56,654 bases of DNA, from assembly GCA_903875605.1 (NCBI GenBank), contig CAIQWT010000019.1, positions 1 through 56,654 of the forward strand, in the 5' to 3' direction. Within the stretch, counting starts at the first letter, position 1. Each line of letters starts with the position of its first letter. A program made the position numbers and the translations under genes. The notes beneath the pieces were generated by a model. The model was given only the letters and a program-made list of their open reading frames with translations, did no database searches and was not told the origin of the DNA. The stretch is from an uncultured Geobacteraceae bacterium (GTDB lineage: Bacteria; Desulfobacterota; Desulfuromonadia; Geobacterales; Pseudopelobacteraceae). This document shows positions 8,022-26,189 of the stretch, piece after piece.

Positions 8022-9665
8022 TTATTTTCTCTCGCTCCTCCTTATGGTATCCAGTAATGGTTGCGCGTAAGAGTCATTCAATCGAATTAACTGAAGATAT
8101 TCCTGATAAGCCAGATCCAGATTGCCTGCGATCAGATACGCATATCCAAGTCGAATGTGCCCATCCGCATCGTTCGGGTCCAACCTGAGAGACTCGCGGA
8201 ATGCATTAATAGCAGCCGGTATGTTACCTACAGCCTGATAGGTATTTCCGAGATTTTTTAAACCGGGGGCCTGATAAGGGTTGATTCGGATCGATTCTTC
8301 AAAATGCTTGATAGCGTCAGCATAACGGTACTGCTGGGCAATCAATATTGCCATGTTGTTATGCGCCAACCAGTTCCGCTCTACCACAGTAATAGCATGA
8401 GTGTAAAGATCATAGCTGGTATGCCAGAAACGGATCTGACTGACTGTCAACACGGAGAAGACTACAAATATTGCTGCCGCTATTCCCGCAGCAACCGGGA
8501 TTCCGTGGCGCCATCTACCGGCCAAATCCTCCCCTCCCCATACCACGGCCATAAACGGTCCGATCAACGGGATGTAGGTATACCGGTCCGCCATGGCCAG
8601 TGATCCTATTCTGACAAAACCGATTACCGGCAGGAGCGTTATCAGAAACCAGAGCCAGCCGAATAGCAGATAGGGGCGTTTTCTTCCCTGCGTGACGGCA
8701 AAAAAACTGATTGACGCCAGGAGAATGACTGCCCCTGCCACTTTTAACGCTACTACATCCGTTATTTGCAGAGGATAAAAGAAGGCAAGATCGACAGGCC
8801 AGAACATATTCCGAAGGTATTTCACATAAGAAAGAAGGCCGTTTCCTATCTGCAGTAAAGTTGATCCGGCATCGGCATGATTTAGAGCCCCACCGGCACT
8901 CTGGGCGCGGAGCGTAATCAATGATGCTGCAGCGGCCATAACTAACAGCGGAATTTTTTCGACCAGCAGCCTCCACCGGCCAAACTGTTCCGACGCCTCT
9001 TCCTCTTGACTCAGGAAAAGGCGGTTTAGCGGCCAGTAGTCTACCAGCAGGAGAATCAGGGGAAGCGTCACCAGCATCTGCTTCGCCATAAGGCCAAGGG
9101 CAAACAGAACGACAACAGGAATATAGCGCTTGAGGGAAGGTTTACTGGCGTACCATACATAGGCAATCATGGCCAGGAGCCAAAAAAAAGTGGAGAGGAC
9201 GTCCTTCCGCTCAGAGATCCAGGCAACCGACTCAACATGCAGGGGGTGGAGCGCAAAAAACAATGCGACCACCAGACTCCTGCCGAGAAAACCGGTCAAC
9301 TGTCGGAGGAGAAGACAAAGCAGGATTGCATTGGCAACATGGAGCAGTAGATTGACGGCGTGATGCCCCATTGGATTCAGGCCGAACATTTCCACGTCGG
9401 CCATATGAGATAGCCAAGTGAGCGGATGCCAATTACCGGCATGGAAGGCGCTGAATGACCAGATAAATCCCTTTAAGGTTAAACCCTGCCGTACGATCAT
9501 GTTAACAGTTACATAGTCAGGATCATCAAAATCGATGAAACCGTTTTGCAGAACGGTCCAGTAAACCACGACGGTCACTATTGCAATCAAAGCTAAAGCG
9601 AGCGGCAGATGCCAAGTGGCACCCACGATTGACAATTTTGTATTTTCCTTCGATCTATCCCTCAT
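8022..9665 (-). CDS. TMTC-like GT-C membrane protein with C-terminal TPRs
   Basis: 547 aa. About ten hydrophobic segments fill residues 15-420. The first periplasmic loop carries NGFIDFDDPDYV, an acidic FDDPDYV motif at the site of the catalytic Asp in GT-C enzymes, then NWHPLTWLSHMADVEMFG and ALHPLHVESVAW. After the membrane part come about three tetratricopeptide repeats (YADAIKHFEESIRINPYQA; AINAFRESLRLDPNDAD; LAYQEYLQLI). Eukaryotic TMTC proteins with this layout are O-mannosyltransferases; bacterial relatives are mostly uncharacterised. It is closely paralogous to the proteins at 11212 and 12761 and is the last of four consecutive membrane-protein genes. Protein O-glycosylation is inferred. 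Confidence 0.75.
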   Translation of the reverse strand: MRDRSKENTKLSIVGATWHLPLALALIAIVTVVVYWTVLQNGFIDFDDPDYVTVNMIVRQGLTLKGFIWSFSAFHAGNWHPLTWLSHMADVEMFGLNPMGHHAVNLLLHVANAILLCLLLRQLTGFLGRSLVVALFFALHPLHVESVAWISERKDVLSTFFWLLAMIAYVWYASKPSLKRYIPVVVLFALGLMAKQMLVTLPLILLLVDYWPLNRLFLSQEEEASEQFGRWRLLVEKIPLLVMAAAASLITLRAQSAGGALNHADAGSTLLQIGNGLLSYVKYLRNMFWPVDLAFFYPLQITDVVALKVAGAVILLASISFFAVTQGRKRPYLLFGWLWFLITLLPVIGFVRIGSLAMADRYTYIPLIGPFMAVVWGGEDLAGRWRHGIPVAAGIAAAIFVVFSVLTVSQIRFWHTSYDLYTHAITVVERNWLAHNNMAILIAQQYRYADAIKHFEESIRINPYQAPGLKNLGNTYQAVGNIPAAINAFRESLRLDPNDADGHIRLGYAYLIAGNLDLAYQEYLQLIRLNDSYAQPLLDTIRRSERK

Positions 9666-9678
9666 CCCTCACCCCTCA

Positions 9679-11199
9679 TCAATTAGGCAGCCAATCATAC
9701 CATTCCGGAGTTACATGGCTAAGAAACCAGGGGAAGTCATATGAAATCAACAACAGAGCTGTTGCCAGCGCCAGCGTTAACCTTATGGGCCCGGTGCGGA
9801 AGAGTCGCAGCAGATAACAGCACACAAGAATATAGATGGGACCAAGCAGGGGGAAAAGATACCTCCCATAAAGGGTTATGCCGGGTGCTCCATACTGCAG
9901 ATAACTGCTGTAGTTAATTTCCAACATGAGATAACCGGCATAAAAACCGGCAATAGCAGCCAGGCAGAGAGACAGCCATCCCGATTCCCTTGGCCGCCAG
10001 CGGATTATAAAACCGCATAGCGCCAACGATAAAACCACGTACACCGGAATAAGATAGCGCAGATCCTTGACCATTATCAGGTGGGCCTTTATCCCGAACA
10101 TAGTGGCCACCATGTTTATGAACCAGACCTTTACATACTGCAGCGGGCCCAACCAGAGTTGTGGGTTCCTCTTCAGGTTTTCATAGTTCATAAGCAGACC
10201 AAATGTATCGGCCTTGTCTCCGGGATGCCTGATCTCTCCAGCCAATATCAAAGCATCCATATAGGATATTTTGCCATTCTTATACTGATCAAAAATTATC
10301 CCGCGCGCCTCAAGACGGTAGTTCATAGCTATCTCAGGCGACAATACCATTGGCATGGAGGGGACCAGCGCCCCGTAGCGAAGATAATTACCCCCATACA
10401 GATTGACGTTTAACCCCAGCACAACAAAGATAATCAGTATAGCGAACCATGCGCGACGACCGGACAGCTGCAACCATGACTTTAGTGTGCAGGGTAAAAG
10501 GCGTAGGCCCCTCCATTCATGAATGACCAGCAACATGCACAACACCGGAACGAGTGGCAAAAAGGTGATTTTCGTCAGGCATCCCGTTAACTGAACCAAT
10601 ATTGCCGCGACCAAAAGATTGCCCGAACGCTGTTTAAAAAACGCCAGCTGATAATATATGGCCATTGCAGCCAATAGATTCGTCAGGTTATCGTATGAGA
10701 CCGAAGCTGACATCAAGGAGAACATCGCCGTATTAGTTATGGCAACAATCAGCAAAAGTTGGGTCAGCCGGTCCCCTGTCAGGAGAAGCAGTGTCCGCCG
10801 GACAAAAAAAACAGTTCCGAAGGCGAGTGGGATATTAAGAAGCCGAAGAAAGACCAGATCCGAGAGGCCAAACAAATTGAGGTGGAGCATTTTGCCCATG
10901 AGCCAGTAATAGAGCCATGGGATGTTGGTAACGAGGCCGAACTCGTAGCTTTCGGGAGTATTTACGGGGAACAGCAGCGTCTTCGAAAAGAGCCTGCAGA
11001 TCCCGGCATGGGTAACTTCATCAGGCGGCACAAACGAGGATATATTCAAAGCAAAGTATATAAGGCGCACAGCAAAATATGCCAGAAGAAGGCCAGTCGC
11101 CCAATTTAGAAACCTGGCCGAAATCAAGGTGTCTTTTGTAGAGACAAGCTCAATGGTTGATACATTTTGATTCTGCTCCGCGGGAATATCTGAGTGCAT
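9679..11199 (-). CDS. polytopic GT-C-like membrane protein (DUF2142/GT39-like)
   Basis: 506 aa with roughly ten to twelve TM segments. An early periplasmic motif SFVPPDEVTHAG follows TM1. PPDE-x-H is typical of DUF2142/GT39-type integral membrane glycosyltransferases, the acidic residue being the likely catalytic position. A further loop has YSSYLQYGAPGITLYGRYLFPL, with a GRYLFP motif shared by that group. It has no TPRs, unlike its three neighbours. It lies 13 bp from genes on either side and is therefore almost certainly in the same operon. It probably uses a lipid-linked sugar on the periplasmic face; donor and acceptor are unknown. Confidence 0.65.
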   Translation of the reverse strand: MHSDIPAEQNQNVSTIELVSTKDTLISARFLNWATGLLLAYFAVRLIYFALNISSFVPPDEVTHAGICRLFSKTLLFPVNTPESYEFGLVTNIPWLYYWLMGKMLHLNLFGLSDLVFLRLLNIPLAFGTVFFVRRTLLLLTGDRLTQLLLIVAITNTAMFSLMSASVSYDNLTNLLAAMAIYYQLAFFKQRSGNLLVAAILVQLTGCLTKITFLPLVPVLCMLLVIHEWRGLRLLPCTLKSWLQLSGRRAWFAILIIFVVLGLNVNLYGGNYLRYGALVPSMPMVLSPEIAMNYRLEARGIIFDQYKNGKISYMDALILAGEIRHPGDKADTFGLLMNYENLKRNPQLWLGPLQYVKVWFINMVATMFGIKAHLIMVKDLRYLIPVYVVLSLALCGFIIRWRPRESGWLSLCLAAIAGFYAGYLMLEINYSSYLQYGAPGITLYGRYLFPLLGPIYILVCCYLLRLFRTGPIRLTLALATALLLISYDFPWFLSHVTPEWYDWLPN

Positions 11200-11211
11200 T
11201 ATGGCTGCCTG

Positions 11212-12777
11212 CTATTGCTGTATTTTGGTCGCATCTTGCCACCTCTTCTGTTCAAGGGCAACTCCCAAGTTGTTTTGCGCCTTTGCGTTGTCAGGATTTA
11301 ACCGAAGAGTCTCCTTAAGATGCAGAATCGCTGCATCCAGATCCCCCTTAATGGCAAAAGCCATTCCCATATTATAATGTGCATCCGGGTAATTGGAATT
11401 TATCCTTAGTGCCGCACGGAATTCAGGAATAGCAGCATCCAGATCCCACTTCGAGGCGAGGGCATTTCCAAGGTTGTTATGAATGACATAGTTACCGGTG
11501 GTAACGCGAAGGGTATGCCTGTAGAGGGAAATATTGTCACGCCAGTGGCCAAGCTGCTGCCACGTTAACACAGTTGATACAATTAAAGCCGTTCCGGCAA
11601 GCAGCGCCAGAATTGACGTTTTGTATCTATTGTTATTTACAAGCTCCGGGACGCTCCATGCGATCATGATGAATATACCTGTCAAGGGAATGTAAGAGTA
11701 GCGATCAGCCATTGATTGAACCCCCACCTGTACAAGGCCGATGACCGGAATAAGGGTTATGATGAACCAGAACCATCCCACTGCAAGGTAGGGTAGTTGG
11801 TGTCTGGTCCGGATAACGGCGAAAGACACGAGGAGCATGACGAGCAGTGAGCCTATAACCTGCCATAGCTGGAACGCCTGGGGAATGGGATACAATATCG
11901 CCAGATCACTGGGCCAGAAAGTTTTACCGATGTAGGTTAAATAAGCAATCAGGGCGTTTTCTACGCGGAGCAAAGGAGGTATGGCACCAAAACTTTTAAT
12001 AGCTCCCCCTGAATGCTGGGCAAAGAGGGTAATTAAAGATGAAATAAATGAACTGGCAAAGAAGGGCCCTTTTTCCTTTACAAGGGCGGCCAGTGACAGT
12101 TCACGGCCAGACTCCTTACACCTGTAATCGGCCTGCCCCTCGCTCCGGCAGCGGCCTAAAGGCCAGTAATCCATCAAGAGCATGATTATGGGAAGGGTCA
12201 CGAGCATTGGCTTGGACATCAGGCCCAGCGCGAAGGAGACGAGTGTGAGGAGGTAAAGGGTGGCGTTCCGTTTTTTTACATATTCGGCATACAGCAACAG
12301 AGTAAGGAACCAGAAAAAAGCACTGAGGAGATCCTTTCTCTCTGCCACCCAGGCGACCGATTCTACATGCAGCGGGTGAAGCGCGAACAGGGCGGCGACA
12401 AATGAACTTTGCCAGCGTGAGCCGGTAATGCGGAATAGCAGGAGTAAAATGAGCAGGGAGGATGCCGCATGAATAAAAACGTTGGTGAGATGGTGACCGC
12501 GAGGATTCATGCCGTAGAACTGTACGTCCGTCATGTGAGATATCCAGGTGACCGGATGCCAGTTGGCTGCTTCTACAGAGGTAAAGGCCCACAAAATATT
12601 TTTACCGGTTATGCCGCTGACGACATGAGGGTTGGTGGTAACGTAGACATCGTCGTCAAAATTCAGGAACTGGTGGTTTCCGGCCTGCCAATATACGGCA
12701 ACAACGAAGACAACCAACGCCAGGCATATTAAGAAAATGGAGCGCGTCCCGCTGTCCTTGTCAAAAGCCGGATTCAT
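11212..12777 (-). CDS. TMTC-like GT-C membrane protein with C-terminal TPRs
   Basis: 521 aa. Same plan as the protein at 8022: TM1, a loop with FLNFDDDVYV, then NWHPVTWISHMTDVQFYGMNPRGHH (over 60% identical by eye to the neighbour in this segment), ALHPLHVESVAWVAERKD, multiple TM segments, and two to three TPRs at the C-terminus (AIPEFRAALRINSNYPDA; AILHLKETLRLNPDNAKA). The final TPR is cut short, ending KRWQDATKIQQ. The start overlaps the upstream gene by 17 bp, with AAGG just before the ATG. Predicted periplasm-facing glycosyltransferase; the TPRs may recruit substrate proteins (inference). Confidence 0.75.
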   Translation of the reverse strand: MNPAFDKDSGTRSIFLICLALVVFVVAVYWQAGNHQFLNFDDDVYVTTNPHVVSGITGKNILWAFTSVEAANWHPVTWISHMTDVQFYGMNPRGHHLTNVFIHAASSLLILLLLFRITGSRWQSSFVAALFALHPLHVESVAWVAERKDLLSAFFWFLTLLLYAEYVKKRNATLYLLTLVSFALGLMSKPMLVTLPIIMLLMDYWPLGRCRSEGQADYRCKESGRELSLAALVKEKGPFFASSFISSLITLFAQHSGGAIKSFGAIPPLLRVENALIAYLTYIGKTFWPSDLAILYPIPQAFQLWQVIGSLLVMLLVSFAVIRTRHQLPYLAVGWFWFIITLIPVIGLVQVGVQSMADRYSYIPLTGIFIMIAWSVPELVNNNRYKTSILALLAGTALIVSTVLTWQQLGHWRDNISLYRHTLRVTTGNYVIHNNLGNALASKWDLDAAIPEFRAALRINSNYPDAHYNMGMAFAIKGDLDAAILHLKETLRLNPDNAKAQNNLGVALEQKRWQDATKIQQ

Positions 12778-14413
12778 CCTTCACCCTTCCCATGCCGGCA
12801 AGTGCCGGCGCATATTCCGGATTAATCTGCAACGCCTGCCAGAATACATTTTCAGCCGGCACATAAAGCTTTTGAGCCAAGTACCCGTCACCCTCGCGGC
12901 AGAGTGCAACTGCTCTCTGCGCCATCCTTGTATCCATTCCGCGAAACAGCCTCTCTCCCTTTTCTCGATAAAGTGCAGCCTGCCTGTTGCTCCCACTCTG
13001 TTCGTACAATTTAATCAGCATGAGATATGGCTCTGGGTTTGTCGGCCCCAACGAAATCGCTCTGAGCAGTGATTTCTCGGTCTCGTAGCGCATATTCTCT
13101 TTCCAGAACACGGAGGCGCTGCCAATTAAAAATTGTGCGGAGATGTCCGGCTTTGTCAGAGCAGCGGCCAGAAATGGTACGGCTCGGGCTATGTCGCCAT
13201 TTTTGTAGTGTAACATGCCGAGATTTTGAAAACCGTCGAACTTTTCCGGGGCATCAGTCGTCATCCGGGTAAAAAAAACAATCTCATTTTCCCAGATGCC
13301 ACCACGTCCGAAATCTATGAGAGAATAAACAATGCAGATGGTCCCAACGCATACTGCCAAGGCTCGACCATTTAACTTACAGACAACTGATGCCAGAAAA
13401 AGTGCAAAACCCATCAAGGAAAAATAGGCATAGCGATCCGCCATTAAAGACGCTGAATCAAGCGGTATGATATTAATAACTGGAAGGAGAAAAAGAAACA
13501 GCCATGCGGCAGAAAACAGGATTTCATCATTCTTTCTAAAGAGCCGGACAGCAGTCACGAGACCGGCAAGAACAAACAGGCATACCATGCTTAAAAGCAG
13601 ATTCGGCAACGCATCATAAAGGATTTTCAGATGAAACGGATAGAGCATATTAAGGACGTATCTCACTATGAGGTACGGTGCAGCCAGCGAATCAGACAGG
13701 TTTATAGCACTGATAAAGTTGGCTTTCTGTACGGCGTATGAACGGAGGGCAAGATAACTGACAATCGGTATCAGGTAGAGAATGTAGCCGCTGAAACGCT
13801 TTTTTTCCTGGTTCAGCCGGAAGTCATACAGCAGGAATATTATCGGCAGCAACAGGGCAAATTCTTTGGAAAAAATAGCTGCGGTGAAACAGACTGCCGC
13901 CGGAATCTGCTTTTTTTTGATATATAAAAGCAGAGACAGCAAGCCAAAACAGGCTGAGAGCAGAGTATTTCTGCCGCCGGCAAGAAAATTAACCGACTCA
14001 GCGGTAACAGGATGCAGGGCAAAAAGCAGGGTTGCAACAAACGCCAGGCGTTCTTTTTTGAAAAGTGCCATGACAACCATATAAAAGAGCAGCACTACGA
14101 AGAGATGAAGAGTGATGTTGGTAAGATGGAATCCTGCCGGATTAAGCCCCCATAAAGCGCGATCCAGGGCAAAAGAGATGTACGTCACCGGGCGGTAATA
14201 ACCTGTATAACCCATAGCCATGTCTTCAGACAGGAAGAAATGTGGTATGTTGCCAAGTTTCCCCAGAAGCGGGTTATGGACTATTACGTTGTTGTCGTCC
14301 CAGACAAAACCATTGTTGATTGTAGAAGCATAGATTGCAGTGATAAGCAGGATGAACAGCCCATAGCGAAGTACAGATATCTTTAATGCATCGTTAATGT
14401 GACGCACCTTCAA
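12761..14413 (-). CDS. TMTC-like GT-C membrane protein with C-terminal TPRs
   Basis: 550 aa. A more divergent member of the triplet: NGFVWDDNNVIVHNPLL is the acidic loop motif, followed by YYRPVTYISFALDRALWGLNPAGFH and LLFALHPVTAESVNFLAGGRNT. The last third (residues 390-550) holds TPR-like helices (MLHYKNGDIARAVPFLAAAL; ENVFWQALQINPEYAPALAGMGRV). It starts 4 bp inside the upstream ResB-like gene (ATGA) and overlaps the next gene by 17 bp, so translation of all three is probably coupled. The divergence suggests an older duplication or a different acceptor. Confidence 0.75.
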   Translation of the reverse strand: MKVRHINDALKISVLRYGLFILLITAIYASTINNGFVWDDNNVIVHNPLLGKLGNIPHFFLSEDMAMGYTGYYRPVTYISFALDRALWGLNPAGFHLTNITLHLFVVLLFYMVVMALFKKERLAFVATLLFALHPVTAESVNFLAGGRNTLLSACFGLLSLLLYIKKKQIPAAVCFTAAIFSKEFALLLPIIFLLYDFRLNQEKKRFSGYILYLIPIVSYLALRSYAVQKANFISAINLSDSLAAPYLIVRYVLNMLYPFHLKILYDALPNLLLSMVCLFVLAGLVTAVRLFRKNDEILFSAAWLFLFLLPVINIIPLDSASLMADRYAYFSLMGFALFLASVVCKLNGRALAVCVGTICIVYSLIDFGRGGIWENEIVFFTRMTTDAPEKFDGFQNLGMLHYKNGDIARAVPFLAAALTKPDISAQFLIGSASVFWKENMRYETEKSLLRAISLGPTNPEPYLMLIKLYEQSGSNRQAALYREKGERLFRGMDTRMAQRAVALCREGDGYLAQKLYVPAENVFWQALQINPEYAPALAGMGRVKDESGF

Positions 14414-15660
14414 ACTTTCCTCGCATCCACCAGATCAAGAACTTCATGGAATACCCCGGCATGAGTCCTTGCTCTACCTTCTGACCGGGAGCAGGATCTT
14501 ATCAGATCCGGCTCAAAACTTAACAACATTTCCCTGCGGGGGAAGAACAACCGAATCGGCAGCCAGAGACTGACTGCTGTGGCGAAGATCAGGCCTGCTG
14601 CCCATATTAAAAGGACACCGTAATCTCCAATAAAATCGGTTATCACGAGGCGCCTGACATCGGGAAGTGCCAGACGGTAGCCGTCACGCATAAATTCCCC
14701 GCCAGCCGGAACACTCCCCGAAAAGAGCACTTCCTTGCCCTTCAGCACCTTAAACAGTAAGTTAATTTTACCCGACATATATGAAACATAGCGTTCACTA
14801 TTTGCGGCCGGTATCGGAACACTTAACACGATTCGATAGGGTGAACCTGGAATTACAACATTATCCTCTTTTCCCGGAGGATAGGTATTCAGAGAGCAAT
14901 GTGTATCGTAACCGGCTTGCAGGTCAGGAGCAGAGAAACGCAGGAGAACGGCAAGGCCGAGATAACGGGGATAGACAAAAGAACCGCCATACAGTGCTGG
15001 AGGATATAGCCCGAAGGTCTTTTTTCCCTGTCCGGAATTCGACGGAGCAATTTCCATAGTCAGGGTTTTGGCCAGGATAGAACCGGATGAGTTTGCCAAA
15101 GTGATTCGTTCTACAGTACCGCCCGTCCCGTCCGGCATAGGCATCGACTCGCCCTCAATTACCATCCGTCTGTCCGAGGTACGGGAGGTTACACTTATGA
15201 GAATACCGGTAAAAAGACAACAGGTTGCAGTCAAGAATAGCATCCGCGCGGGAAAAAGGCTGATTCCTCGCCAGGCAGCAAGGGTATTTAATGAGCGACG
15301 TGTTTTATATCCGACCCCGATAAGCCTCCCCTCGAGTTCTGACATAAAGGGTGAAACCGGGAGCTCTACCGTTTCGTCGAACAGCTCAGGCAGGGAATCA
15401 ACTGACTTTCCACTCAGCGACCTGCGCCTTTTCATAAAAACAACTGTTTCCTGCAGAATCCTGACTCCGCAGCTCAACGGTATTAAGGAAAGAATGGCCG
15501 CAAGAATAATACTTTTGCGGGTGAACGCCATCAGGGCAATCAAGGTTTCGTCGGTAAAGAAAGCAATCCCGATATAAAATAGAAAGAACAGGCCAATGAC
15601 CACAGGAGCTATGGCACGGGAAGATCCTACGATCAAAAAGGTCTGCAGAAGGCGCTTCAT
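14410..15660 (-). CDS. ResB-like membrane protein with large periplasmic domain
   Basis: 416 aa. Two TM segments near the start (residues 12-32 and 45-62), one at about 133-155, then a large beta-rich periplasmic domain and a terminal TM (VLLIWAAGLIFATAVSLWLP) followed by a basic tail. The order of TMs, the periplasmic loop ending in GYRLALPDVRRLVITDFIGDYG, and the closing TM plus basic segment resemble ResB-family cytochrome c maturation proteins, but sequence similarity is weak. It overlaps the FtrD-like gene by 4 bp upstream (ATGA) and a TMTC-like gene by 4 bp downstream. A role in handling haem or redox partners of the FtrD-like protein is inferred. Confidence 0.5.
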   Translation of the reverse strand: MKRLLQTFLIVGSSRAIAPVVIGLFFLFYIGIAFFTDETLIALMAFTRKSIILAAILSLIPLSCGVRILQETVVFMKRRRSLSGKSVDSLPELFDETVELPVSPFMSELEGRLIGVGYKTRRSLNTLAAWRGISLFPARMLFLTATCCLFTGILISVTSRTSDRRMVIEGESMPMPDGTGGTVERITLANSSGSILAKTLTMEIAPSNSGQGKKTFGLYPPALYGGSFVYPRYLGLAVLLRFSAPDLQAGYDTHCSLNTYPPGKEDNVVIPGSPYRIVLSVPIPAANSERYVSYMSGKINLLFKVLKGKEVLFSGSVPAGGEFMRDGYRLALPDVRRLVITDFIGDYGVLLIWAAGLIFATAVSLWLPIRLFFPRREMLLSFEPDLIRSCSRSEGRARTHAGVFHEVLDLVDARKV

Positions 15661-17789: not shown

Positions 17790-17822
17790 CCTCAATAACC
17801 TTTCAGACTTTGAAGAGCCTTT

Positions 17823-17972
17823 ACCGCAAAGGCGCAAAGTACGCAAAGAAAATCACCGTCAAAACCTTTAGGTCTTTGGGTAAAATCTAAGCTGTTTTTT
17901 GTAGGTTTAAGTTTTTCACCGCACTTTACTTTTTTATCTTGGTTTCCTTTGCGTTCTTTGCGCCTTTGCGGT
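17823..17972. repeat. 150-bp element bounded by 26-bp inverted repeats
   Basis: The left arm at 17823-17848 (ACCGCAAAGGCGCAAAG...) and the right arm at 17947-17972 are reverse complements with one mismatch in 26. The interior is AT-rich and carries no gene. It sits between the permease and ATPase genes of an otherwise tight operon, and its arm supplies the codons of the spurious ATPase N-terminal extension. It resembles a MITE/REP-type interspersed element. Confidence 0.75.
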
Positions 17973-17984: not shown

Positions 17985-19145
17985 CTACTCGCCCCGAAGA
18001 CTTCTCACCGGATCAAGTCTAAAAACCGATATCATCGGCCCGACACTGCCCAGTAAAGCTAAAAACAGACTAACCCCAAGAGATACAAATACAAACCAGG
18101 GAATGAACTCAGCAGATGCAGCAAAGACCGTTTTGGTGATGAACTGGGCTATAACGCTGCCGAAGAGATATCCGGCAAACCCGCCCAAAACGCCCAGCAT
18201 TGCCGCTTCCCCGCAAAAGATAAGCATAACCTCCCATCGGGTTCCCCCCATCGCCTTCATAAGCCCGATTTCCTTACCTCTTTCCAGCACCGTAGTACTC
18301 ATTGTACCGGCCACACTACTTCCTGCGGAGACCAGTACCACAGCAGTCACCATAAGCATCAGCAGCTTGACTTTAGCAAGCAGTCCTTCGGAGGTTCGGG
18401 CGGTTTGCCGCACTTCATTGACTTTAGCTGTCGGCACATGCCGTTGCAGTGTTAAAGCGCTCTGACGGAGAGAGTCCCTCCCTGCGGTCACCATGAGCCT
18501 GACAAGGGTAAGCTGGCCTTCAAGTCCAAGAGCCTGTTGAAGTTCAGGGAGTGCCATAAACAGGAGGTCATCCTCCTCACCGCCGGATGAAACAATGCCG
18601 GAAATCCGCAACTGTATTTTTTTATCAACGCCGGCCATCTCGACAACATCCCCGGCCTTTAACTTCATCCGTAACGCCAGGTCACTGCCTACAACAGTCT
18701 CACCAACCGCAGGCCAATTGCCATTAAGCTGCCACCATGGAAACAGCCGGCGAATATCACTGAAGTTGACCCCTTCCGCTATTACATCCGTGTTTTTCAT
18801 GTGCAAAGCGCCACGCAGATGAAATGAGACCTCAGCTTTCAGCCCGCTTTTAACAAGGGCCTCTTCCACCAAGCTCTGCCGCAGATACGCCGGGTCACTG
18901 ACAACACCAAAATTAAGTCCGCCACTGCCAATATCAAGGCGGGCCGATTCAGGGATGATGATCAGATTTGCTCCGTATTTACGAACCTCTTCAGCAACCC
19001 GTGTTTCCATAGAAAACGAAACAATGCCAAGAGCCGTAGCAAGGCTTGACGCCATAGCGAGCACCGCCAGTAAAAGCGCAGTACGTCCCTTACGGTGGGC
19101 AAGCGCACGTAAAACAAGGTGTATGAGCCAACGACGTTTATTCAT
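17985..19145 (-). CDS. ABC transporter permease, FtsX/MacB-like
   Basis: 386 aa. The classic MacB/FtsX plan: TM1 (TALLLAVLAMASSLATALGIVSF) after a basic N-terminus, a periplasmic domain with RRLFPWWQLNGNWPAVGETVVG, then three C-terminal TMs (VKLLMLMVTAVVLVSAGSSVAG; EVMLIFCGEAAMLGVLGGFAGYL; WFVFVSLGVSLFLALLGSV) ending LDPVRSLRGE. The signature KEIGLMKAMGGTRWEV sits between TM2 and TM3. It is homologous to the permease encoded just upstream (1-bp gap), and together they likely form a heterodimer with the ATPase at 17109. Same arrangement as cj1661/cj1662 in Campylobacter (from memory, not checked). Confidence 0.87.
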   Translation of the reverse strand: MNKRRWLIHLVLRALAHRKGRTALLLAVLAMASSLATALGIVSFSMETRVAEEVRKYGANLIIIPESARLDIGSGGLNFGVVSDPAYLRQSLVEEALVKSGLKAEVSFHLRGALHMKNTDVIAEGVNFSDIRRLFPWWQLNGNWPAVGETVVGSDLALRMKLKAGDVVEMAGVDKKIQLRISGIVSSGGEEDDLLFMALPELQQALGLEGQLTLVRLMVTAGRDSLRQSALTLQRHVPTAKVNEVRQTARTSEGLLAKVKLLMLMVTAVVLVSAGSSVAGTMSTTVLERGKEIGLMKAMGGTRWEVMLIFCGEAAMLGVLGGFAGYLFGSVIAQFITKTVFAASAEFIPWFVFVSLGVSLFLALLGSVGPMISVFRLDPVRSLRGE

Positions 19146-19146
19146 G

Positions 19147-20376
19147 TCAGCCTTTCAAAACAGTAACAGGTTCAATCAGGAGCGCCCGGCGCAGAGGCGT
19201 AACGCTACCGGCGATAGCAACTACCAAGGCGGATATAATAGCCGTAGGGAACAGCCAGAGCGGAGAAACTATTGCTGAGTTAAATACCGTGCGACTGATG
19301 ATCTGAGCAAGCTGGTCACCTAGCAAATATCCGATGATTCCTCCTGCAACAGAGATGATCAAGGTCTCGCCTACAAAGATAGCACTGATTTGGAAACGGT
19401 CCGCCCCAATCGCCTTCATCAAGGCTATTTCCGGACTCCTTTCAGCCATGGAAGCCATTAAACTGGTCGAAACGGCGGTTGCAGAAGCCACAAGCGCCAG
19501 AACCGTAAGGAGAAGCATCACGCTGTTAAGTTTCTTCAGAAGAGATCCCTCCGCACTTGCAATCTGCCAGATCGGCTTGGCACGGCTTCCAGCCATAACC
19601 TCTTCCACATTCTTGGCTACTGAAGTCACATAAGCAGTGCAATACCATTTTTCATATTCGTCCTTCGTCATCTTAGCCGGGTCTTTTTTACCGAAATCAT
19701 CCATCGGTACAGTAAGGGCGCTCACCTGAACCCGAGAGACTTTCCCCGGTTTCAGCAGAAGGGTCTGTACCGTAACAAGTGGAGCGAATAGCTGTTCCTC
19801 CTCGAAACCACCAGTGGTGACAACTCCTACAACACGGAAACGTTGATTTCGACCCCGAACACTTGTTTCAACATCACTTCCGGTATTGACGCCGAGTCGT
19901 TTAGCCAGGGCCGCGCCGATAATCGCTTCGTCTGGACCGTCAGGCCAGTTTCCGCTGACATCCCACCATGGAGCAATGCCCTTAATACCCTGTATTGAAA
20001 TATCCTCTCCCGGAACCTCCAGCTGTTTGGTAAACCAAGTTCCAGAAACGACCCCACGCTCTTTCCTGCCACCTGCAGCGAAGTCGGCAACACCATATAG
20101 ATAGGGTGCAAATCCGGTAATATTATATTTCCAAAAGACCGTCTTTATTTTTGGCAGGTCTTCTTCACGCAAAAAACCGCCCCCCTCAACGGCGGACGGT
20201 TCAAGCAAAATATTCGCACCATAGCTCCGAAGCTCCAGCGCCATTTTGTGGGATATTTCGCCGGCAATGCCGAGAAAGGCAGTAGCAACGGAGGCCCCCA
20301 TGGCTATAGAGAGGAAAACCAGGAAAACAGACTTAGGACGTTTGAGGAATGAATTTTTGAGAATTCGTAACAGCAC
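19147..20376 (-). CDS. ABC transporter permease, FtsX/MacB-like
   Basis: 409 aa starting at GTG 20376, 3 bp after the preceding stop. TM1 (SVFLVFLSIAMGASVATAFLGI), a periplasmic domain containing IAPWWDVSGNWPDGPDEAIIG (a counterpart of the WWQLNGNWP motif in the partner permease), the coupling segment SPEIALMKAIGADRFQI, and three C-terminal TMs ending LRRALLIEPVTVLKG. Both permeases share the PWW-x-L/V-x-GNWP motif, supporting a heterodimer from an old duplication. Within the operon it is preceded by a small 4-TM protein and the WG-repeat lipoprotein. Confidence 0.87.
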   Translation of the reverse strand: MLLRILKNSFLKRPKSVFLVFLSIAMGASVATAFLGIAGEISHKMALELRSYGANILLEPSAVEGGGFLREEDLPKIKTVFWKYNITGFAPYLYGVADFAAGGRKERGVVSGTWFTKQLEVPGEDISIQGIKGIAPWWDVSGNWPDGPDEAIIGAALAKRLGVNTGSDVETSVRGRNQRFRVVGVVTTGGFEEEQLFAPLVTVQTLLLKPGKVSRVQVSALTVPMDDFGKKDPAKMTKDEYEKWYCTAYVTSVAKNVEEVMAGSRAKPIWQIASAEGSLLKKLNSVMLLLTVLALVASATAVSTSLMASMAERSPEIALMKAIGADRFQISAIFVGETLIISVAGGIIGYLLGDQLAQIISRTVFNSAIVSPLWLFPTAIISALVVAIAGSVTPLRRALLIEPVTVLKG

Positions 20377-20379: not shown

Positions 20380-20802
20380 TTAAAGACCGATGAGTTCCGC
20401 ACGCAATTCAGACGGTAGCGATTCCTTGAGCAGATCAACTTTCTTTTGCATACGCCTCCACGCGTAAATCCCCCAGACAACTGCAGCAAACATCATGATA
20501 TGTTTTACCGCCAGCGCCGGAATCTGAAGTTTGTCTGCTGCATTTGCCCATTCAAAACTAGTGTAGAAGATTGTGCGCGGCACTCCACCCAGGACTACCC
20601 ACCAGAGAGCAAATTTGAATAGTTTTTTCATCTGGGAGTTCGTCTTCAGGAAAAAGAGCGTTGCCTGCGGTGTATTCATGGTTGCCTGTATGCGCATAAT
20701 CGCATGCAGCGCGAAGCCGCTTCCCACAAGCAGACCGGTAGCCATGTCGTGGAAATAGTTATTCATCATAATGGCTACGCCGAGCCCTGGACCTATATGC
20801 AT
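20380..20802 (-). CDS. small four-TM membrane protein, unknown function
   Basis: 140 aa with about four hydrophobic segments (residues 18-36, 62-80, 93-115 and a weaker N-terminal one). Histidines occur in or near membrane segments: NYFHDMATG, FALHAIMR and AVKHIMMF, an arrangement that could hold haem as in CopD- or b-type membrane cytochromes, but this is speculation. The tail is charged (RRMQKKVDLLKESLP). It is tightly packed between the WG-repeat lipoprotein (2-bp gap) and the first ABC permease (3-bp gap), so it probably works with the transporter. I do not recognise the family with certainty. Confidence 0.6.
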   Translation of the reverse strand: MHIGPGLGVAIMMNNYFHDMATGLLVGSGFALHAIMRIQATMNTPQATLFFLKTNSQMKKLFKFALWWVVLGGVPRTIFYTSFEWANAADKLQIPALAVKHIMMFAAVVWGIYAWRRMQKKVDLLKESLPSELRAELIGL

Positions 20803-20804
20803 GG

Positions 20805-21887
20805 TTATTTTCCCTTTGGAGCGTCAGTATTGAAATGTGTATTGTAATGTGTGTATTGGTCAATTGAGCGTTGATCCCATTCAAAGCGGGGCTCAATAAC
20901 CATTTTGCCGGTTTTATCGATAAAACCGCACTTTTCACCCACTCTGACCGGCGCTATCCCTGCTACAAATATTGAACCGGAATCAAACTGTGGCTTGATT
21001 ACCATCTTACCCTGTTTGTCTATATACCCGACCTTCCCTTTTTCTATCATCGGCGCCAAACCCTCAGTAAAGATTGTTGGTGTGCGGAACTCCTGAGAGA
21101 TGATCTGTTTCCCGGTTTTGTCTATCAACTGCCAGACATCCTTATTTTTCACCGCAGCCACCCCATCACTGAAGTTTGTTGCTTCACTGTATTGCGCCGG
21201 AATAACCATATTACCAGTATGATCGATATATCCTACCATGCCGAATTTTCCGTTGATCTTGACCATAGCAAGTCCATCACGGAACAGTGCTGCCTGAAAA
21301 TACTTTTCCGGTATTACAACTTTTCCGCTCTTATCAATATAACCATACTTACTACCGTTTTTTACAGTGGCAAGCCCTTCAGAAAACTGAGCGGCGTCGG
21401 CGAACTGGGGTTTTATAACTACTTTACCCTTGTCATTGATAAACCCGGACTTGCCGACGTTACCCTCCTGCACAACTACTGCTGCCATACCTTCGGTAAA
21501 AGCAAAAGTGGACAGGTATTCATAATCGATAACCATCTTTCCTGTTTGATCTATGTAACCCCACTTTTCTCCTTTCCGGACCGATGCTCTGCCGTTCAGA
21601 AAAATAGATGCCGCATCGAAACTTGCAGGGATTACGATCTTGCCATTTGTGTCGATATAGCCGTCCTTGCCGTTGACATGAACCGCAGCAAGACCCTCGG
21701 AAAAGAGAGAGGCAGAGTCGAATTGGGCAGGAATTACCGTGATACCGCCACGGTCACAATAACCGTATTTACCGTTCTGTTTCACCAGAATCCGTAAAGA
21801 ATTATCCAGAGCAGGCTTCTTTTCATCCCGGTTGCAAGCTGTGCATAGTGTCAGCAATGCGAGTGTAAGTAACAGTAAACGTTTCAT
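20805..21887 (-). CDS. WG-repeat lipoprotein
   Basis: 360 aa. A lipoprotein signal with lipobox LCTAC (Cys18) is followed by nine consecutive WG/KWG-type repeats of about 35 residues (PF14903 style): YGYCDRGGITVIPAQFDSA, DGYIDTNGKIVIPASFD, WGYIDQTGKMVIDYEY, and so on to CGFIDKTGKMVIEPRFEW. The ATG has a perfect GGAGGT 5 bp upstream. Such repeats form beta-rich scaffolds on the cell surface or in the periplasm; no enzymatic residues are evident. It lies 78 bp after resB and 2 bp before a small membrane-protein gene. The partner is unknown; association with the cytochrome maturation or transport complex is an inference from position. Confidence 0.82.
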   Translation of the reverse strand: MKRLLLLTLALLTLCTACNRDEKKPALDNSLRILVKQNGKYGYCDRGGITVIPAQFDSASLFSEGLAAVHVNGKDGYIDTNGKIVIPASFDAASIFLNGRASVRKGEKWGYIDQTGKMVIDYEYLSTFAFTEGMAAVVVQEGNVGKSGFINDKGKVVIKPQFADAAQFSEGLATVKNGSKYGYIDKSGKVVIPEKYFQAALFRDGLAMVKINGKFGMVGYIDHTGNMVIPAQYSEATNFSDGVAAVKNKDVWQLIDKTGKQIISQEFRTPTIFTEGLAPMIEKGKVGYIDKQGKMVIKPQFDSGSIFVAGIAPVRVGEKCGFIDKTGKMVIEPRFEWDQRSIDQYTHYNTHFNTDAPKGK

Positions 21888-21965: not shown

Positions 21966-23330
21966 TCATCGTTCCTCGCTTACTGTTTCCCCAACTATTT
22001 CTCCAAAAAGTTTAACAAATTCATCTTCCGCCAGACTTTTGTAATACTCAGAGCGACCGGCAACGACCAGAGAGAGCACACCATTCTGCTCCCTTACGGC
22101 ACCGAGGATCTCTCGCCGGTAAAAAAGCAGTCGCCAGATGACACCGATTGTTGCGAGAGCAAAACCGGCATACAGGATTGATAGGCCGCGCTGCTTAACT
22201 ACGTAAAAGCGAACCCAGAAAGGCATATCACGCATTTCAAGACGATAACCGGCAAACTCCAGAGCCCCGTTTTTCGGGACAAGTCCTTCGGCTATCTTCT
22301 TCCCGTACTGTTCTACGGCAATGAAGAACACCGGATTGTTAAATTCCATGGAACGTGTAGCCCGTTTACCATCATCCAGAACATAATCCGGGTAGAAAGT
22401 TGCAGTAAACGTGAACCCGGCCAAGGTAAAGTGGTCCGGCTTCATCTTCAGGACGTCAAGCTTTATATACGATCCTTCTATTTCCCTGCCTGAATTATCT
22501 TTGACTACAAAAAGCGGAGATACTCCAAGATGCTTGAACACAAAAGAGGTATGTTCTGTTGTATACGGTCGGTTGATGTCAACTTCATGGGTTCCGCCCT
22601 TGGCGTCAGCCAGGACAATGCTGATTCCGGTTGGAGTATTGTGTTCAACACGGGGAATAATACTTTTTACTGTCAGAGTTACATCCGGCGGAGAGCCTAT
22701 CTCCGGTATTTTCGGGCTGGGTGAAGCGTTGTAACGGCTGAGTTCACCCTGAAATGATTCCCCCTGAGCAAGGTCAAGATACCCGATAAACTCGGTATAA
22801 ACACTGATAAGTCCACCAAGCAGAATGAGAAAGAAGCTGACGTGAAAGAGCATAAACGCGAGCGGCGACAAGCGGTTTTTAACCCCATAGAACCCGGCAG
22901 CATCGCCAAGGATGGTAAAGCCACCACCCTTGACGCGGCTAAGAACTGTGTCACCGCTGGTAGTCGCTGGTAGTGTGTAGCATTTCCGAAATGGGTATCC
23001 ACCCGCAGTCTCCGGATCGGTGATTTTTGTTTCTGATAAAATTATGCGGCTTTTGACGATAGGCCATCGCTGCCAAAGCACAAGTGACAGGTTAAGAAAA
23101 AAAAGCAGCCAGAGTGTTATGGTGATAGGTGATGAGTATATTGTCGTCAACCCAAGAGTATCGAGAATAGCTACCAATGAGGGGGAACTCTTTTGCCACT
23201 CAAGGTATATCGACTTTAGCAGTTTCTGCTGAGGCACGACGAGGCCAAGGGCAAAAATCATACCAAGCAGGCTGATAAGCAGGATTGTAAACCTGAGAGA
23301 GCTGAGATATTTGATTGTTTTTTTTATCAT
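21966..23330 (-). CDS. resB: cytochrome c biogenesis protein ResB
   Basis: About 454 aa from the ATG at 23330. An upstream ATG at 23384 adds an 18-residue stretch read from the repeat-like hairpin between the genes, so it is considered less likely, although no clear Shine-Dalgarno site marks either start. Typical ResB layout: KYLSSLRFTILLISLLG (TM1), TM2 ending in LVLWQRWP, TM3 with a histidine (FMLFHVSFFLILLGG), a large periplasmic domain, and the final TM (LSILYAGFALATIGVIWRLLFYRRE). With CcsA/CcsB it forms the system II complex that exports haem and attaches it to CxxCH motifs in the periplasm, fitting the cytochromes encoded upstream. ccsB lies 76 bp upstream of this start. Confidence 0.88.
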   Translation of the reverse strand: MIKKTIKYLSSLRFTILLISLLGMIFALGLVVPQQKLLKSIYLEWQKSSPSLVAILDTLGLTTIYSSPITITLWLLFFLNLSLVLWQRWPIVKSRIILSETKITDPETAGGYPFRKCYTLPATTSGDTVLSRVKGGGFTILGDAAGFYGVKNRLSPLAFMLFHVSFFLILLGGLISVYTEFIGYLDLAQGESFQGELSRYNASPSPKIPEIGSPPDVTLTVKSIIPRVEHNTPTGISIVLADAKGGTHEVDINRPYTTEHTSFVFKHLGVSPLFVVKDNSGREIEGSYIKLDVLKMKPDHFTLAGFTFTATFYPDYVLDDGKRATRSMEFNNPVFFIAVEQYGKKIAEGLVPKNGALEFAGYRLEMRDMPFWVRFYVVKQRGLSILYAGFALATIGVIWRLLFYRREILGAVREQNGVLSLVVAGRSEYYKSLAEDEFVKLFGEIVGETVSEER

Positions 23331-23349
23331 AGAGAAATGAGGGATGAGC

Positions 23350-23399
23350 GGTGAAGGATGAGGGATGATCTTTTCATCTATCATCCCTCATCTTTCATC
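23350..23399. repeat. hairpin repeat between ccsB and resB
   Basis: Arms at 23350-23369 (GGTGAAGGATGAGGGATGAT) and 23380-23399 are reverse complements at 18 of 20 positions, including a perfect 13-bp core, around a 10-nt loop. Related TCATCCCTCA strings occur at 9660-9680. It is probably an intergenic repeat that folds in the ccsB-resB transcript and may modulate processing or translation. Confidence 0.6.
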
Positions 23400-23406
23400 G
23401 GTTCGT

Positions 23407-24243
23407 TTACCTTACTTGAAACACATGCAGGCTGGAGTTTACAACCAGGTTAACACCGAAGAAACAGATAATAACTGTGCTCAGAGCGGCAATAGCAAGC
23501 CAGGCCAGACGTTTTTCGCGCCAACCGAACGTTACACGCAGATGAATGGTAATGCCATAGGTAAGCCATGAGATTAGAGACCAGGTTTCGACCGGATCCC
23601 AGGCCCAGTAGCTCCCCCAGAGATCTTTTGCCCAGATTGCACCTGCAGATATCATGATGGTATCAGTAATAAACCCGAAAACAACATAGCGGAAAATCAG
23701 TTCATCTAATCGACCAAGAGAAGGGAAGCGATCATAGGAGGGGTTCGGCACTGCCAGAGATTCACTCTTCTGCTTCAATAAAAAGACAACTCCAGCTGCC
23801 ATGGCAAGAGAATAAGCGCCGAAAGAAAGCCAGGCAAAATAGACGTGTATGTACAGCCAGATGGTTTTAAGGCTCGCTGCCATTGGTGTGAGGGCTGGAT
23901 TCTGCATATAACCGTAGCCCATCATGACGACAACAAGCGGTGTGGTTGCTGCAGCCAACCCCTGCAGCAGCTTGTTTTGCCAACCGACGAAGAGCGTACC
24001 TAATATAATGAACCACCCGCCCATCAGTGCGTACTCGTAGTGGCCTGACCAGGGAAGATGGCCGGTGGCAACAAAACGCGCGACGATTGCTGCAGTATGA
24101 CCAAGAAATCCTGCAGCGATCAGCAGGGTTAATTTGTTCATTGTGCGCGGATTCTTGAAGACGAATGAGTAGATGAAACCTCCTGCCGCCAGCGCATAAG
24201 AAACTAAAGCTACCCAATAAAAAACCATTTCCCAGAATGCCAT
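23407..24243 (-). CDS. ccsB: cytochrome c biogenesis protein CcsB (CcsA family)
   Basis: 278 aa with eight TM segments. The tryptophan-rich WWD-type haem-binding loop reads KDLWGSYWAWDPVETWSLISWL (about residues 203-224), with flanking histidines in LPWSGHYEYALMG, WLYIHVYFAWLSFG and YGITIHLRV, the expected haem ligands. CcsA/CcsB together with ResB carries haem across the membrane and ligates it to apocytochromes. It lies directly upstream of resB in the same orientation and downstream of a ResB-like gene (151-bp gap). The family's usual length is about 270-320 aa. Confidence 0.92.
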   Translation of the reverse strand: MAFWEMVFYWVALVSYALAAGGFIYSFVFKNPRTMNKLTLLIAAGFLGHTAAIVARFVATGHLPWSGHYEYALMGGWFIILGTLFVGWQNKLLQGLAAATTPLVVVMMGYGYMQNPALTPMAASLKTIWLYIHVYFAWLSFGAYSLAMAAGVVFLLKQKSESLAVPNPSYDRFPSLGRLDELIFRYVVFGFITDTIMISAGAIWAKDLWGSYWAWDPVETWSLISWLTYGITIHLRVTFGWREKRLAWLAIAALSTVIICFFGVNLVVNSSLHVFQVR

Positions 24244-24394
24244 ATTATAATCCTTTTTCTGCCTTAACCTGTGGTTTGCGGCCAGTTGCAGTTATTAAAA
24301 ACATCCTTCTGTGTTAAGACGGCATGATCGAAAAGATAAACGCAGTAATAAGCCGTAGTTTTTACACACTTTAACTCTTTGTATCAGTCAAGGT

Positions 24395-25585
24395 TCAAAT
24401 GCCGTTGCTGGTTCTGATGCTTGTAATACGCTTATTAGTTTCAGCACCGGCGGACCTGACGGCACAACCTTCCGGCGCTTCTTCCAACCAGACCCGCTTG
24501 GGCCGTATCAGGGAACGCAGTAACAGACCAAATAGCGTGATAATGCCACCAATCACCAGCAGGCCTTTGTGCCTTCTGTGAACGACATGAATTTCAGACC
24601 ACTGCCCCATTTTTGCACAGGAGAGAACAAATTCTCCTTGGGTGACTTGCTGATCAACCTGAAATGCCATTTCAGTAACTGTTTTTGTGTCGCCACGGGA
24701 GAGAACCACCAACAGGTTATTTGCTTCCGGCTGATAATAAACACCACCACCGATATATGTGCCCTGGAACAAACCATAGAAGCTGTAAACGCCGCGTTTT
24801 TGTACAAGCGGATCCAGCTTGACCAATTCGTTGAATAAAACGACCGAATCCAGTGTCTTAACGACAATCTGCGGTTCAAAAATCATCTTTGTCATCGCAA
24901 TATCGTACTCACCGTAACTGATCGGATTACCGGGTACAAGAATCCTTTTTTGCTCCACGCCGTCATCTGAAAACAGTGATACCTCGGTTGCTCCCTTTGG
25001 TAAACTGGCAGATGGAAAGAGCTGTTTAGTGATGACCAATTGCGGCAATGTATCAAGCTTGTTGGCAAGAAGCCCTTTGTTAATCCGTCGGTAAGATTCG
25101 ATACGACTTAACTTGGTAGCAGGACCCATGCCGTCCAGCAGTGTCCCGGAAAACTGATGCAGGTTATCCCATATCCCGACAGAGAGGAGGATTAACAACC
25201 CCGCATAAAAGATTGTGCTGCCGAAGTAGCCGTAATCTTTCTTTTCTCCATACGAACCATCAGGAGTAAAGATGTATCCGGCATCGCTCAACAATTGCTG
25301 AGTTTCGATTCTCGGCATACGGAGCGAGACAGCAGACTGCGGTCGTCCGTAAGCATTGCTGTATCGTATTGTTTTACCTCCTCTGAAAAGATACCAGAAC
25401 AAACGGAAGGCGACTATAAACGCAAATGAGGCATTGTTGGCAAGTATCAGCTTTGTGGGGTTAATAACAGGGAGTTGAATATGAAGAGTCACGCTCAGAA
25501 TAACCAGAACGGGGATAATCAAAAATATGAGTAACGACCACGGAGAAACAAAGAGCAGTCGAAAAAATTTAGTGTCGGTATTCAT
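24395..25585 (-). CDS. ResB-like cytochrome biogenesis-associated membrane protein
   Basis: 396 aa. TM1 (LLIFLIIPVLVILSVTLHI), TM2 (FAFIVAFRLFWYLFRGG), TM3 (STIFYAGLLILLSVGIWDNLHQF), a periplasmic domain of about 190 residues, and a final TM (GLLVIGGIITLFGLLLRSLIRP). This is the ResB topology, and YDIAMTKMIFEP in the loop plus the basic exit segment RPKRVWLEE match ResB-like proteins, although key residues of ResB proper are hard to place. It sits directly upstream of ccsB, so it may be an accessory or dedicated haem-handling subunit. It differs from the resB product at 21966 and the protein at 14410. Confidence 0.65.
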   Translation of the reverse strand: MNTDTKFFRLLFVSPWSLLIFLIIPVLVILSVTLHIQLPVINPTKLILANNASFAFIVAFRLFWYLFRGGKTIRYSNAYGRPQSAVSLRMPRIETQQLLSDAGYIFTPDGSYGEKKDYGYFGSTIFYAGLLILLSVGIWDNLHQFSGTLLDGMGPATKLSRIESYRRINKGLLANKLDTLPQLVITKQLFPSASLPKGATEVSLFSDDGVEQKRILVPGNPISYGEYDIAMTKMIFEPQIVVKTLDSVVLFNELVKLDPLVQKRGVYSFYGLFQGTYIGGGVYYQPEANNLLVVLSRGDTKTVTEMAFQVDQQVTQGEFVLSCAKMGQWSEIHVVHRRHKGLLVIGGIITLFGLLLRSLIRPKRVWLEEAPEGCAVRSAGAETNKRITSIRTSNGI

Positions 25586-25682
25586 CGGCTATTATGGTCC
25601 TTTTGCAGTAAAGAAATGCATCCCTCGTTGTTCATCGTTTCAATTTCATCGGTCCTAGCAAATCATTCCTTCACAACTCTAT

Positions 25683-26189
25683 TTACTTAAGCTCATCATG
25701 CTGATTCAACCCGGCCAGTTCCATCTTGCCGCTCTTTGCGCGGGCAAAGGTCAGGCGCATATCTGTATTGTAGTGGTCATTTGAAACACGGTAGACAAGC
25801 ACATGAATGTTGTTTGGGCGGGTTTCAAAACTGGATTCTTTGGGATTTTTAAGTATTCCGACCTTCTGTCTGGTTTGTTGGAATTTCTCGACAAATTGGC
25901 TTTCACTCCCTAATTGCTGAAATCCGGGAGACGCCTCTTTATATAGCGCTGAAAAATTACCGGCTTCTAGTTGCTTAAGAACTTTGGTTGCGACTGCTCT
26001 GACATCAATCATGTCCTGTGGCGAGGCCGCAGGCACGACTGCTTTGTCCTGAGGTGCTGCCGCTACGTTACCCTGAGGTGTTCCAGCGGGCGCCACCGGT
26101 TTTGACGCTTGTTCCTTCGATTTACAACCTAAAGTGGCAATTACGACAATAACAAGAATTGCCGGCAATAAACAACGTAGATATTTCAT
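25683..26189 (-). CDS. periplasmic lipoprotein, DUF4019/NTF2-like
   Basis: 168 aa. Signal with lipobox TLGC (Cys22), then a low-complexity linker rich in Pro, Ala and Gln (residues 25-60), then a compact domain beginning DVRAVATKVLKQLEAGNFSALYKEASPGFQQ. This resembles DUF4019-type stress-associated lipoproteins. ACGGAG lies upstream of the ATG, giving a confident start. It is the first gene after the terminator that closes the cytochrome operon, 97 bp before the ResB-like gene, and may head the maturation/transport operon. Function unknown. Confidence 0.65.
   Translation of the reverse strand: MKYLRCLLPAILVIVVIATLGCKSKEQASKPVAPAGTPQGNVAAAPQDKAVVPAASPQDMIDVRAVATKVLKQLEAGNFSALYKEASPGFQQLGSESQFVEKFQQTRQKVGILKNPKESSFETRPNNIHVLVYRVSNDHYNTDMRLTFARAKSGKMELAGLNQHDELK

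Follow-up and report, generated by a model that had tools for sequence, protein, structure and literature searches.

In System I cytochrome c maturation, the ATP-binding cassette (ABC) transporter of CcmABCD acts together with a WWD haem protein, and CcmAB powers product release. For System II, the reductant of the haem iron and of the cysteines is, to our knowledge, poorly known. Dedicated CcsBA enzymes that serve particular clients beside a general one are described for Wolinella (CcsA1, NrfI) in passages of PMC10663686. Genes encoding DUF2318 proteins occur almost always within homologues of the Campylobacter jejuni cluster, as stated in part of PMC6083913. Mutants of C. jejuni in the fet genes grow poorly at low iron, and it is proposed there that FetBCD supply the reducing power, which passes through FetA (passages of PMC10783030). 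Here we analyzed a 56,654-nucleotide stretch from an uncultured Geobacteraceae bacterium (contig CAIQWT010000019.1 of assembly GCA_903875605.1, C19 in our numbering; hereafter the window), whose genome comprises 3.58 Mb in 109 contigs with a completeness of 99%. In the window, genes for a DUF2318 membrane protein (FetA2) and an FtsX-type ABC transporter are joined to ResB/CcsA genes of System II. This union is real and conserved in relatives, and the locus is an exception to the rule given in that part of PMC6083913. In the reading that we favor, at a probability of about 0.5, the conserved core of the locus would be a System II line, with an ABC/redox module added, that is dedicated to maturing the cytochromes c of an outer-membrane multihaem conduit encoded just upstream.

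A survey of open reading frames (ORFs) showed 15 consecutive minus-strand ORFs, unbroken from position 26189 down to 8022 (Table 1). The one-strand run claimed in an earlier annotation of the same DNA (the original prediction) was therefore borne out, but its count of 13 genes was too low, and its list omitted the DUF3887-like gene at the head of the run. In order of transcription, the genes encode a DUF3887-like lipoprotein, ResB-like396, CcsB, ResB, a WG-repeat lipoprotein, and p4TM, followed by FtsX1, FtsX2, a FetD-like ATPase, FetA2, ResB-like416, and four proteins labeled GT-C. The families named in the original prediction (ResB, Cytochrom_C_asm, FtsX, ABC_tran, FtrD-like, and WG repeats) were recovered by our scans. 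Many junctions are small overlaps or gaps of 1 to 13 bp, as had been described, but five are wider, from 78 to 151 bp: FetA2/FetD (99 bp), FetD/FtsX2 (138 bp), WG/ResB (78 bp), CcsB/ResB-like396 (151 bp), and ResB-like396/DUF3887 (97 bp).

Relatives of the locus were collected by a scan of genome contigs with a FetA2 alignment and two short peptide patterns, which gave 41 loci. These belong to Geobacter, Geomonas, Geotalea, Oryzomonas, Geomobilimonas, Geomesophilobacter, and metagenome-assembled genomes (MAGs) of the same order (Geobacterales), together with one locus outside that order, in a Nitrospirota MAG (L105). None of the 41 loci bears the name of G. sulfurreducens or G. metallireducens, which, for a scan with two short peptides, is not proof of absence. 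In all but one of the 41 loci (40/41), ResB-like416 is located directly 3' of FetA2 on the same strand; at the exception, L105, a 371-aa protein in this place aligns to the ResB-like416 family (profile comparison 95%, E 4e-8, 287 columns). FetD is directly 5' of FetA2 in 36/38 testable loci, and the two misses (L105 and L107) arise from the boundaries of the FetA2 match, the FetD and FetA2 ORFs of L105 overlapping each other. A match to FtsX1 was present at most 6 kb upstream of FetA2 in every locus with enough sequence (31/31). The constancy of these two partners exceeds chance. Tabulation was limited to loci whose sequence extends at least 9 kb 5' and 1.3 kb 3' of FetA2 (27 of the 41, the other 14 having short flanks); in these 27, same-strand matches anywhere in the locus were found for ResB in 22, p4TM in 21, CcsB in 19, and ResB-like396 and WG in 16 each. 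The halves of the core are rearranged in four loci (L081, L084, L095, and L096) and lie 20 kb apart in genome G035, with the order p4TM-WG-ResB-CcsB-ResB-like396-DUF3887-cytochrome. A homologue of the DUF3887-like gene occupies the same position in several relatives. In Geobacter sp. OR-1 (L076:3666-6808), p4TM and FtsX1 are separated by an insertion that encodes an HlyD-type adaptor, a LolCE-type permease, and an ATPase.

Among 76 genomes of the family, FetA2 was found in 21 and p4TM, whose conserved motifs are NNYxHDxAT and PALxVKH, in 19 (E <1e-40). Both were present in 18 genomes, FetA2 alone in 3, p4TM alone in 1, and neither in 54 (Fisher p = 1.9e-13 for the 76 genomes and 1.1e-7 within the genus; these values ignore kinship and are descriptive only). 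In a phylum search of 297 genomes that scored up to five candidates per genome, 14 genomes gave a match at E 1e-15, with full-length FetA2 in three, that of the window and two of the same order; FetA2 seems to be rare beyond the family. A conserved core consisting of ResB-like396, CcsB, ResB, the WG-repeat protein, p4TM, FtsX1, FtsX2, FetD, FetA2, and ResB-like416 is well supported, and the co-occurrence that the original prediction had suggested checking was thus found for its ABC-FetA2-ResB-CcsB part. Its authors knew of no description of an FtrD-like/FtsX set joined to both ResB/CcsA and O-glycosyltransferase-like proteins, and we found none of the union with ResB/CcsA among the open-access matches listed, as judged from titles and abstract openings. 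In a paper on cable bacteria (PMC11976967), there was no occurrence of ResB, radical SAM, MacB, FtsX, or BchE.

CcsB, aligned to the CcsBA chains 25vk and 7s9y, carries the WWD motif, P-His1 (H133), TM-His (H234), and P-His2 (H273), the last aligned through 25vk only; the ligand designations follow passages of PMC11322641. Among homologous segments, these ligand residues are conserved throughout (27/27, 26/26, and 25/25). The membrane His of ResB, H181, is invariant in 24/24 segments. It was matched by eye to H83 of 7s9y and is probably the second TM-His ligand; PDB sequence searches with ResB, the ResB profile, FetA2, the 10-haem protein described below, and cyt315 gave no match. As read from these alignments, the CcsB/ResB pair keeps its haem-ligand residues, one of them assigned by eye. 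The two weak cases that had been called ResB-like proved to be ResB homologues by profile comparison (99.2% for ResB-like416 and 99.1% for ResB-like396 with hhalign), and the top PDB match of ResB-like416 was CcsBA 7s9y. At the position aligned to ResB H181, the membrane His is absent from both paralogues, with Tyr127 in ResB-like396 and Leu143 in ResB-like416.

The ABC transporter and FetA2 are homologous to FetABCD, in agreement with the likeness to a Campylobacter-type iron locus pointed out before. FtsX1 shows 36% to FetB of an E. coli plasmid over nearly the full length, whereas for FtsX2 the values are 29% and 153 bits with FetC against 30% and 146 bits with FetB, and its assignment to FetC is weak. 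The ATPase shows 49% to FetD of the plasmid from residue 25 onward, and because of this homology the Met codon near 17789 is suggested as its true start. FetA2 had been termed FtrD-like; the DUF2318 domain is indeed present, but the protein is a membrane protein with about nine helices (counted on a predicted model with a predicted local distance difference test score, pLDDT, of 83), and DUF2318 is confined to C-terminal residues 339-431. The protein ends shortly past this domain, with no match to YHS. Fold matching of the model tentatively suggests a Rieske-like predicted fold for DUF2318. Rieske-type [2Fe-2S] clusters have the ligands CXH...CXXH; these are not present in the DUF2318 domain of FetA2, which has CxxC...CxxC instead. 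Alignments further showed a motif HDxxHQ-x7-PDH (H203, H207, and H218) in FetA2, in a comparison that covered the DUF2318 ORFs other than those of L132 and L136-L139.

Multihaem cytochromes and a barrel-like protein are encoded upstream of the run. The original prediction left them out of its reading, although they are obvious clients for haem machinery. This set, with the barrel judged by eye, we take to have the make-up of a porin-cytochrome conduit, and its multihaem cytochromes are probable clients of the run. The set is complete and in the order of the window in L141 and nearly so in L146; homologues of the barrel-like protein stand beside the same cytochromes in both, and the orthologues of the 32164-33111 cytochrome in these two loci keep its CX4CH pair. 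For the barrel-like protein, a PDB sequence search gave a chance-level match only. A same-strand ORF with at least five CXXCH was present within 6 kb in 7 of 10 blocks (not in L095, L096, and L103), counting blocks whose 5' side offers at least 4 kb, excluding the window, and taking L081/L151 and L084/L152, which are the same places, once each. In the 10-haem cytochrome, all ten CXXCH and three extra Cys are invariant in the 9 aligned sequences, that of the window included. The extra Cys (C625, C858, and C918, the last in CDDH) lie outside CXXCH and the lipobox; two of them may pair in a disulfide and leave the third free, or they may belong to an unusual haem site. A strong terminator-like hairpin stands between the cytochrome genes and the run, and a single transcription unit of both was rejected on this hairpin, a consensus match only from a scan in which terminator-like sites were at the shuffled level (23 versus 21.5).

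In the maturation line that we favor, CcsB and ResB, with their ligand residues present, would bring haem to the periplasmic side and there join it to the neighboring cytochromes. The two ResB paralogues without haem ligands would probably serve either to hold the apocytochrome or as a docking site for the transporter. FtsX1, FtsX2, and FetD, an ABC machine of the LolCDE/MacB kind, would, together with FetA2 and p4TM, probably drive a step absent from ordinary System II. FetA2 may carry a redox or haem site, and its Rieske-like CxxC/CxxC domain and His motif might keep the haem iron or the cysteines reduced at the periplasmic face. Alternatively, the machine may power release of the product, by analogy with CcmAB. 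System II needs haem iron and cysteines in reduced form, for which a Fet-like source of reducing power that does not serve iron transport would be suited, and we infer that the module shares ancestry with FetABCD and works without FTR1, P19, YHS, and operon thioredoxins. If the operon does tie a Fet-type ABC transporter and DUF2318 to System II, the building and sorting of multihaem conduits and the reduction step of System II become testable by gene removal, and FetABCD of iron uptake might not import iron but serve more generally as a redox device of the periplasm. A much bolder form, which we consider very unlikely, is a third architecture for the maturation of cytochromes c. System II would here be powered by ATP, and the FtsX-type ABC transporter, together with the Rieske-like FetA2, would act as a redox pump for haem iron or thiols, coupled to three ResB proteins and dedicated to outer-membrane cytochrome conduits, in some lineages with haem altered by BchE-like cobalamin radical S-adenosylmethionine (SAM) enzymes.

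Given the homology to FetABCD and the low-iron growth defect of C. jejuni fet mutants in passages of PMC10783030, the ABC/FetA2 part might serve iron or metal acquisition of the Fet kind with another permease, and its place next to haem genes might reflect the iron demand of haem synthesis. We regard this as quite unlikely. Pfam searches found neither the FTR1-type iron permease (FetM) nor P19/FetP in the genome of the window, the latter being searched for in this genome only, and FTR1 was not found in 20 of the 21 genomes with FetA2, some of which are incomplete drafts. In the sole genome with both (G056), FTR1 adjoins another FetA of the canonical kind, which has YHS, along with two FtsX genes and one for a thioredoxin-like protein; these make up a canonical Fet cluster of its own. 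FetA2 and its ABC transporter therefore seem independent of FetMP. YHS is present in the canonical FetA of L055, whereas the run is without YHS, and no FetE/FetF-type thioredoxin domain was found in any of its genes. Furthermore, the constant partner of FetA2 is a ResB-like protein, not a permease. Because the genome is without FTR1 and P19, Campylobacter-like iron uptake is unlikely, and iron uptake as such was rejected on these absences. The genome of the window also encodes another DUF2318 protein, a short one, whose gene lies with an ATPase gene and a single FtsX gene (L057:10415-12716; G000:C74), adjoining an RND efflux-like set recognized by eye. A dedicated Lol-like extractor for the outer-membrane cytochromes and the WG and CarboxypepD lipoproteins of the locus is also unlikely. 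LolCDE models are among the best NCBIfam matches of FtsX1, FtsX2, and FetD, and several neighbors have a lipobox or are lipoprotein-like; however, the scores fall far under the cut-offs (47.5 and 36.5 versus 362 bits for LolCE and 206 versus 308 bits for LolD), FtsX1 is nearer to FetB than to the LolCE-type permease of Geobacter OR-1 (24% over 221 residues), and FetA2 with its constant ResB-like partner would be left unexplained.

The machine might also handle a modified haem or another tetrapyrrole made by the cobalamin radical SAM enzymes that adjoin it in some relatives, which we judge highly unlikely. A gene for a B12-binding radical SAM protein directly precedes p4TM in 8/41 loci (L091:4765-6114, L092, L098, L099, L103, L106, L107, and L108), and a BchE-like gene is nearby in 12/41 loci plus one fragment (L103), examples being L107:12703-14196, L098:14420-15886, L097, and L102. 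The BchE model scored up to 435 bits, but this is below its cut-off (best 435.4 versus 481.35 for TIGR02026, with three BchE-like proteins scanned), lipids and proteins are further substrates of such enzymes (other models matched), and most loci, including the window, are without such genes. The two BchE-like genes in the genome of the window (G000:C81:57995-63474; 78% and 46% to those of a relative) are on another contig, away from the core. In Geotalea toluenoxydans (L107:4775-6106), the interval from the radical SAM gene to p4TM holds a gene for a spermidine synthase-like protein fused to an MFS-like part. Least probable, in our judgment very unlikely, is the link drawn in the original prediction between haem/metal handling and O-glycosylation of exported proteins. 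In the window, ResB-like416 and the first GT-C gene share 4 bp, and the two are likely cotranscribed there because of this overlap. However, the position of the GT-C genes is inconstant. Among 37 testable relatives (three short loci and L105 left out), the first match after ResB-like416 to any of the four proteins shares the strand of the core in 8 and lies on the other strand in 11; the remaining 18 showed no such match within 4 kb. The O-glycosyltransferase link was thus not upheld, and the GT-C genes, rejected as core members on this count, are neighbors of the core. PMT_2 exceeded its cut-off in one of the four (11212-12777) but not in the other three, and the label DUF2142/GT39-like was not reproduced, the 9679-11199 protein having no Pfam or NCBIfam match at E 0.01.

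Elsewhere in the window, glycan-type genes (a GNAT-domain protein, a methyltransferase, a polysaccharide deacetylase, and three glycosyltransferases) occupy 482-6926 on the plus strand, and a family B DNA polymerase gene occupies 37576-39831. The window gave no Rfam match at gathering scores and no tRNA.

Table 1. Features of the minus-strand run and of the upstream cytochrome genes, in order of transcription
Feature	Position	Strand	Remarks
Exported beta-barrel-like protein, probable porin	33526..34959	-	Judged by eye from sequence; no family match
Cytochrome lipoprotein	32164..33111	-	5 CXXCH + 2 CX4CH
CarboxypepD_reg-like predicted lipoprotein	31535..32206	-	Matches below cut-off
CarboxypepD_reg/SdrD_B-domain predicted lipoprotein	29520..31538	-	Homologues in L141, L146, L147
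10-haem c-type cytochrome, predicted lipoprotein	26507..29335	-	10 CXXCH, lipobox, Cytochrome_C7
Terminator-like hairpin (intrinsic type)	26424..26449	-	11-bp stem, 8 GC pairs, T tract; consensus match only
DUF3887-like predicted lipoprotein	25683..26189	-	Heads the run; matches PF13026 (Pfam) at E 1e-5, under its cut-off
ResB-like396, ResB paralogue	24395..25585	-	Pfam ResB 26.7 vs 24.6 bits
CcsB, CcsA-type haem-handling synthase half	23407..24243	-	Cytochrom_C_asm E 1e-38
ResB	21966..23384	-	Pfam ResB E 5.5e-23
WG-repeat predicted lipoprotein	20805..21887	-	8 WG repeats, E 4e-84
p4TM, 140-aa membrane protein	20380..20802	-	No family match above cut-off (Pfam, NCBIfam)
FtsX1, FetB-like permease	19147..20376	-	Pfam FtsX + MacB_PCD (MacB periplasmic domain)
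FtsX2, second permease, FetB/FetC-like	17985..19145	-	Pfam FtsX
FetD-like ATPase	17109..17846	-	ABC_tran E 3e-33
FetA2, DUF2318 membrane protein	15657..17009	-	PF10080
ResB-like416, third ResB homologue	14410..15660	-	hhalign 99.2% to ResB
GTC3, TPR protein	12761..14413	-	Pfam: TPR only; place and strand vary in relatives
GTC2, TPR + PMT_2 protein	11212..12777	-	PMT_2 30.9 vs cut-off 26.1 bits
Protein originally predicted as DUF2142-like	9679..11199	-	Often on opposite strand in relatives
GTC1, TPR/PMT_2-like	8022..9665	-	PMT_2 22.5 bits, below 26.1; often on opposite strand in relatives

Compared with FetMP-FetABCDEF of C. jejuni and of the E. coli plasmid NZ_CP048311.1, the locus shares the DUF2318 membrane protein, two FtsX permeases, and the ATPase. 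It differs in being without FTR1, P19, YHS, and thioredoxins, in the HDxxHQ-PDH motif that FetA2 adds, in the ResB-like protein as constant partner, and in the junction to CcsB/ResB. The presence of an ABC transporter alongside a WWD haem protein recalls CcmABCD of System I, but the permeases here are of the FtsX type, and no other gene of the run matched a Ccm family in Pfam. Like CcsA1 and NrfI of Wolinella, the run probably encodes a client-linked System II enzyme; the Wolinella clients in passages of PMC10663686 have CX15CH or CXXCK, whereas the 10-haem client here has ordinary CXXCH, as judged by inspection of its conserved Cys/His columns and not by pattern searches for CXXCK and CX15CH, and its neighbor has two CX4CH. 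The System II synthase, represented by CcsBA 7s9y, is matched by the CcsA-type half with WWD, P-His1, P-His2, and TM-His and by ResB with its invariant membrane His. The locus differs from this synthase in having two extra ResB paralogues without that His and in carrying the ABC/FetA2/p4TM module in the same run.

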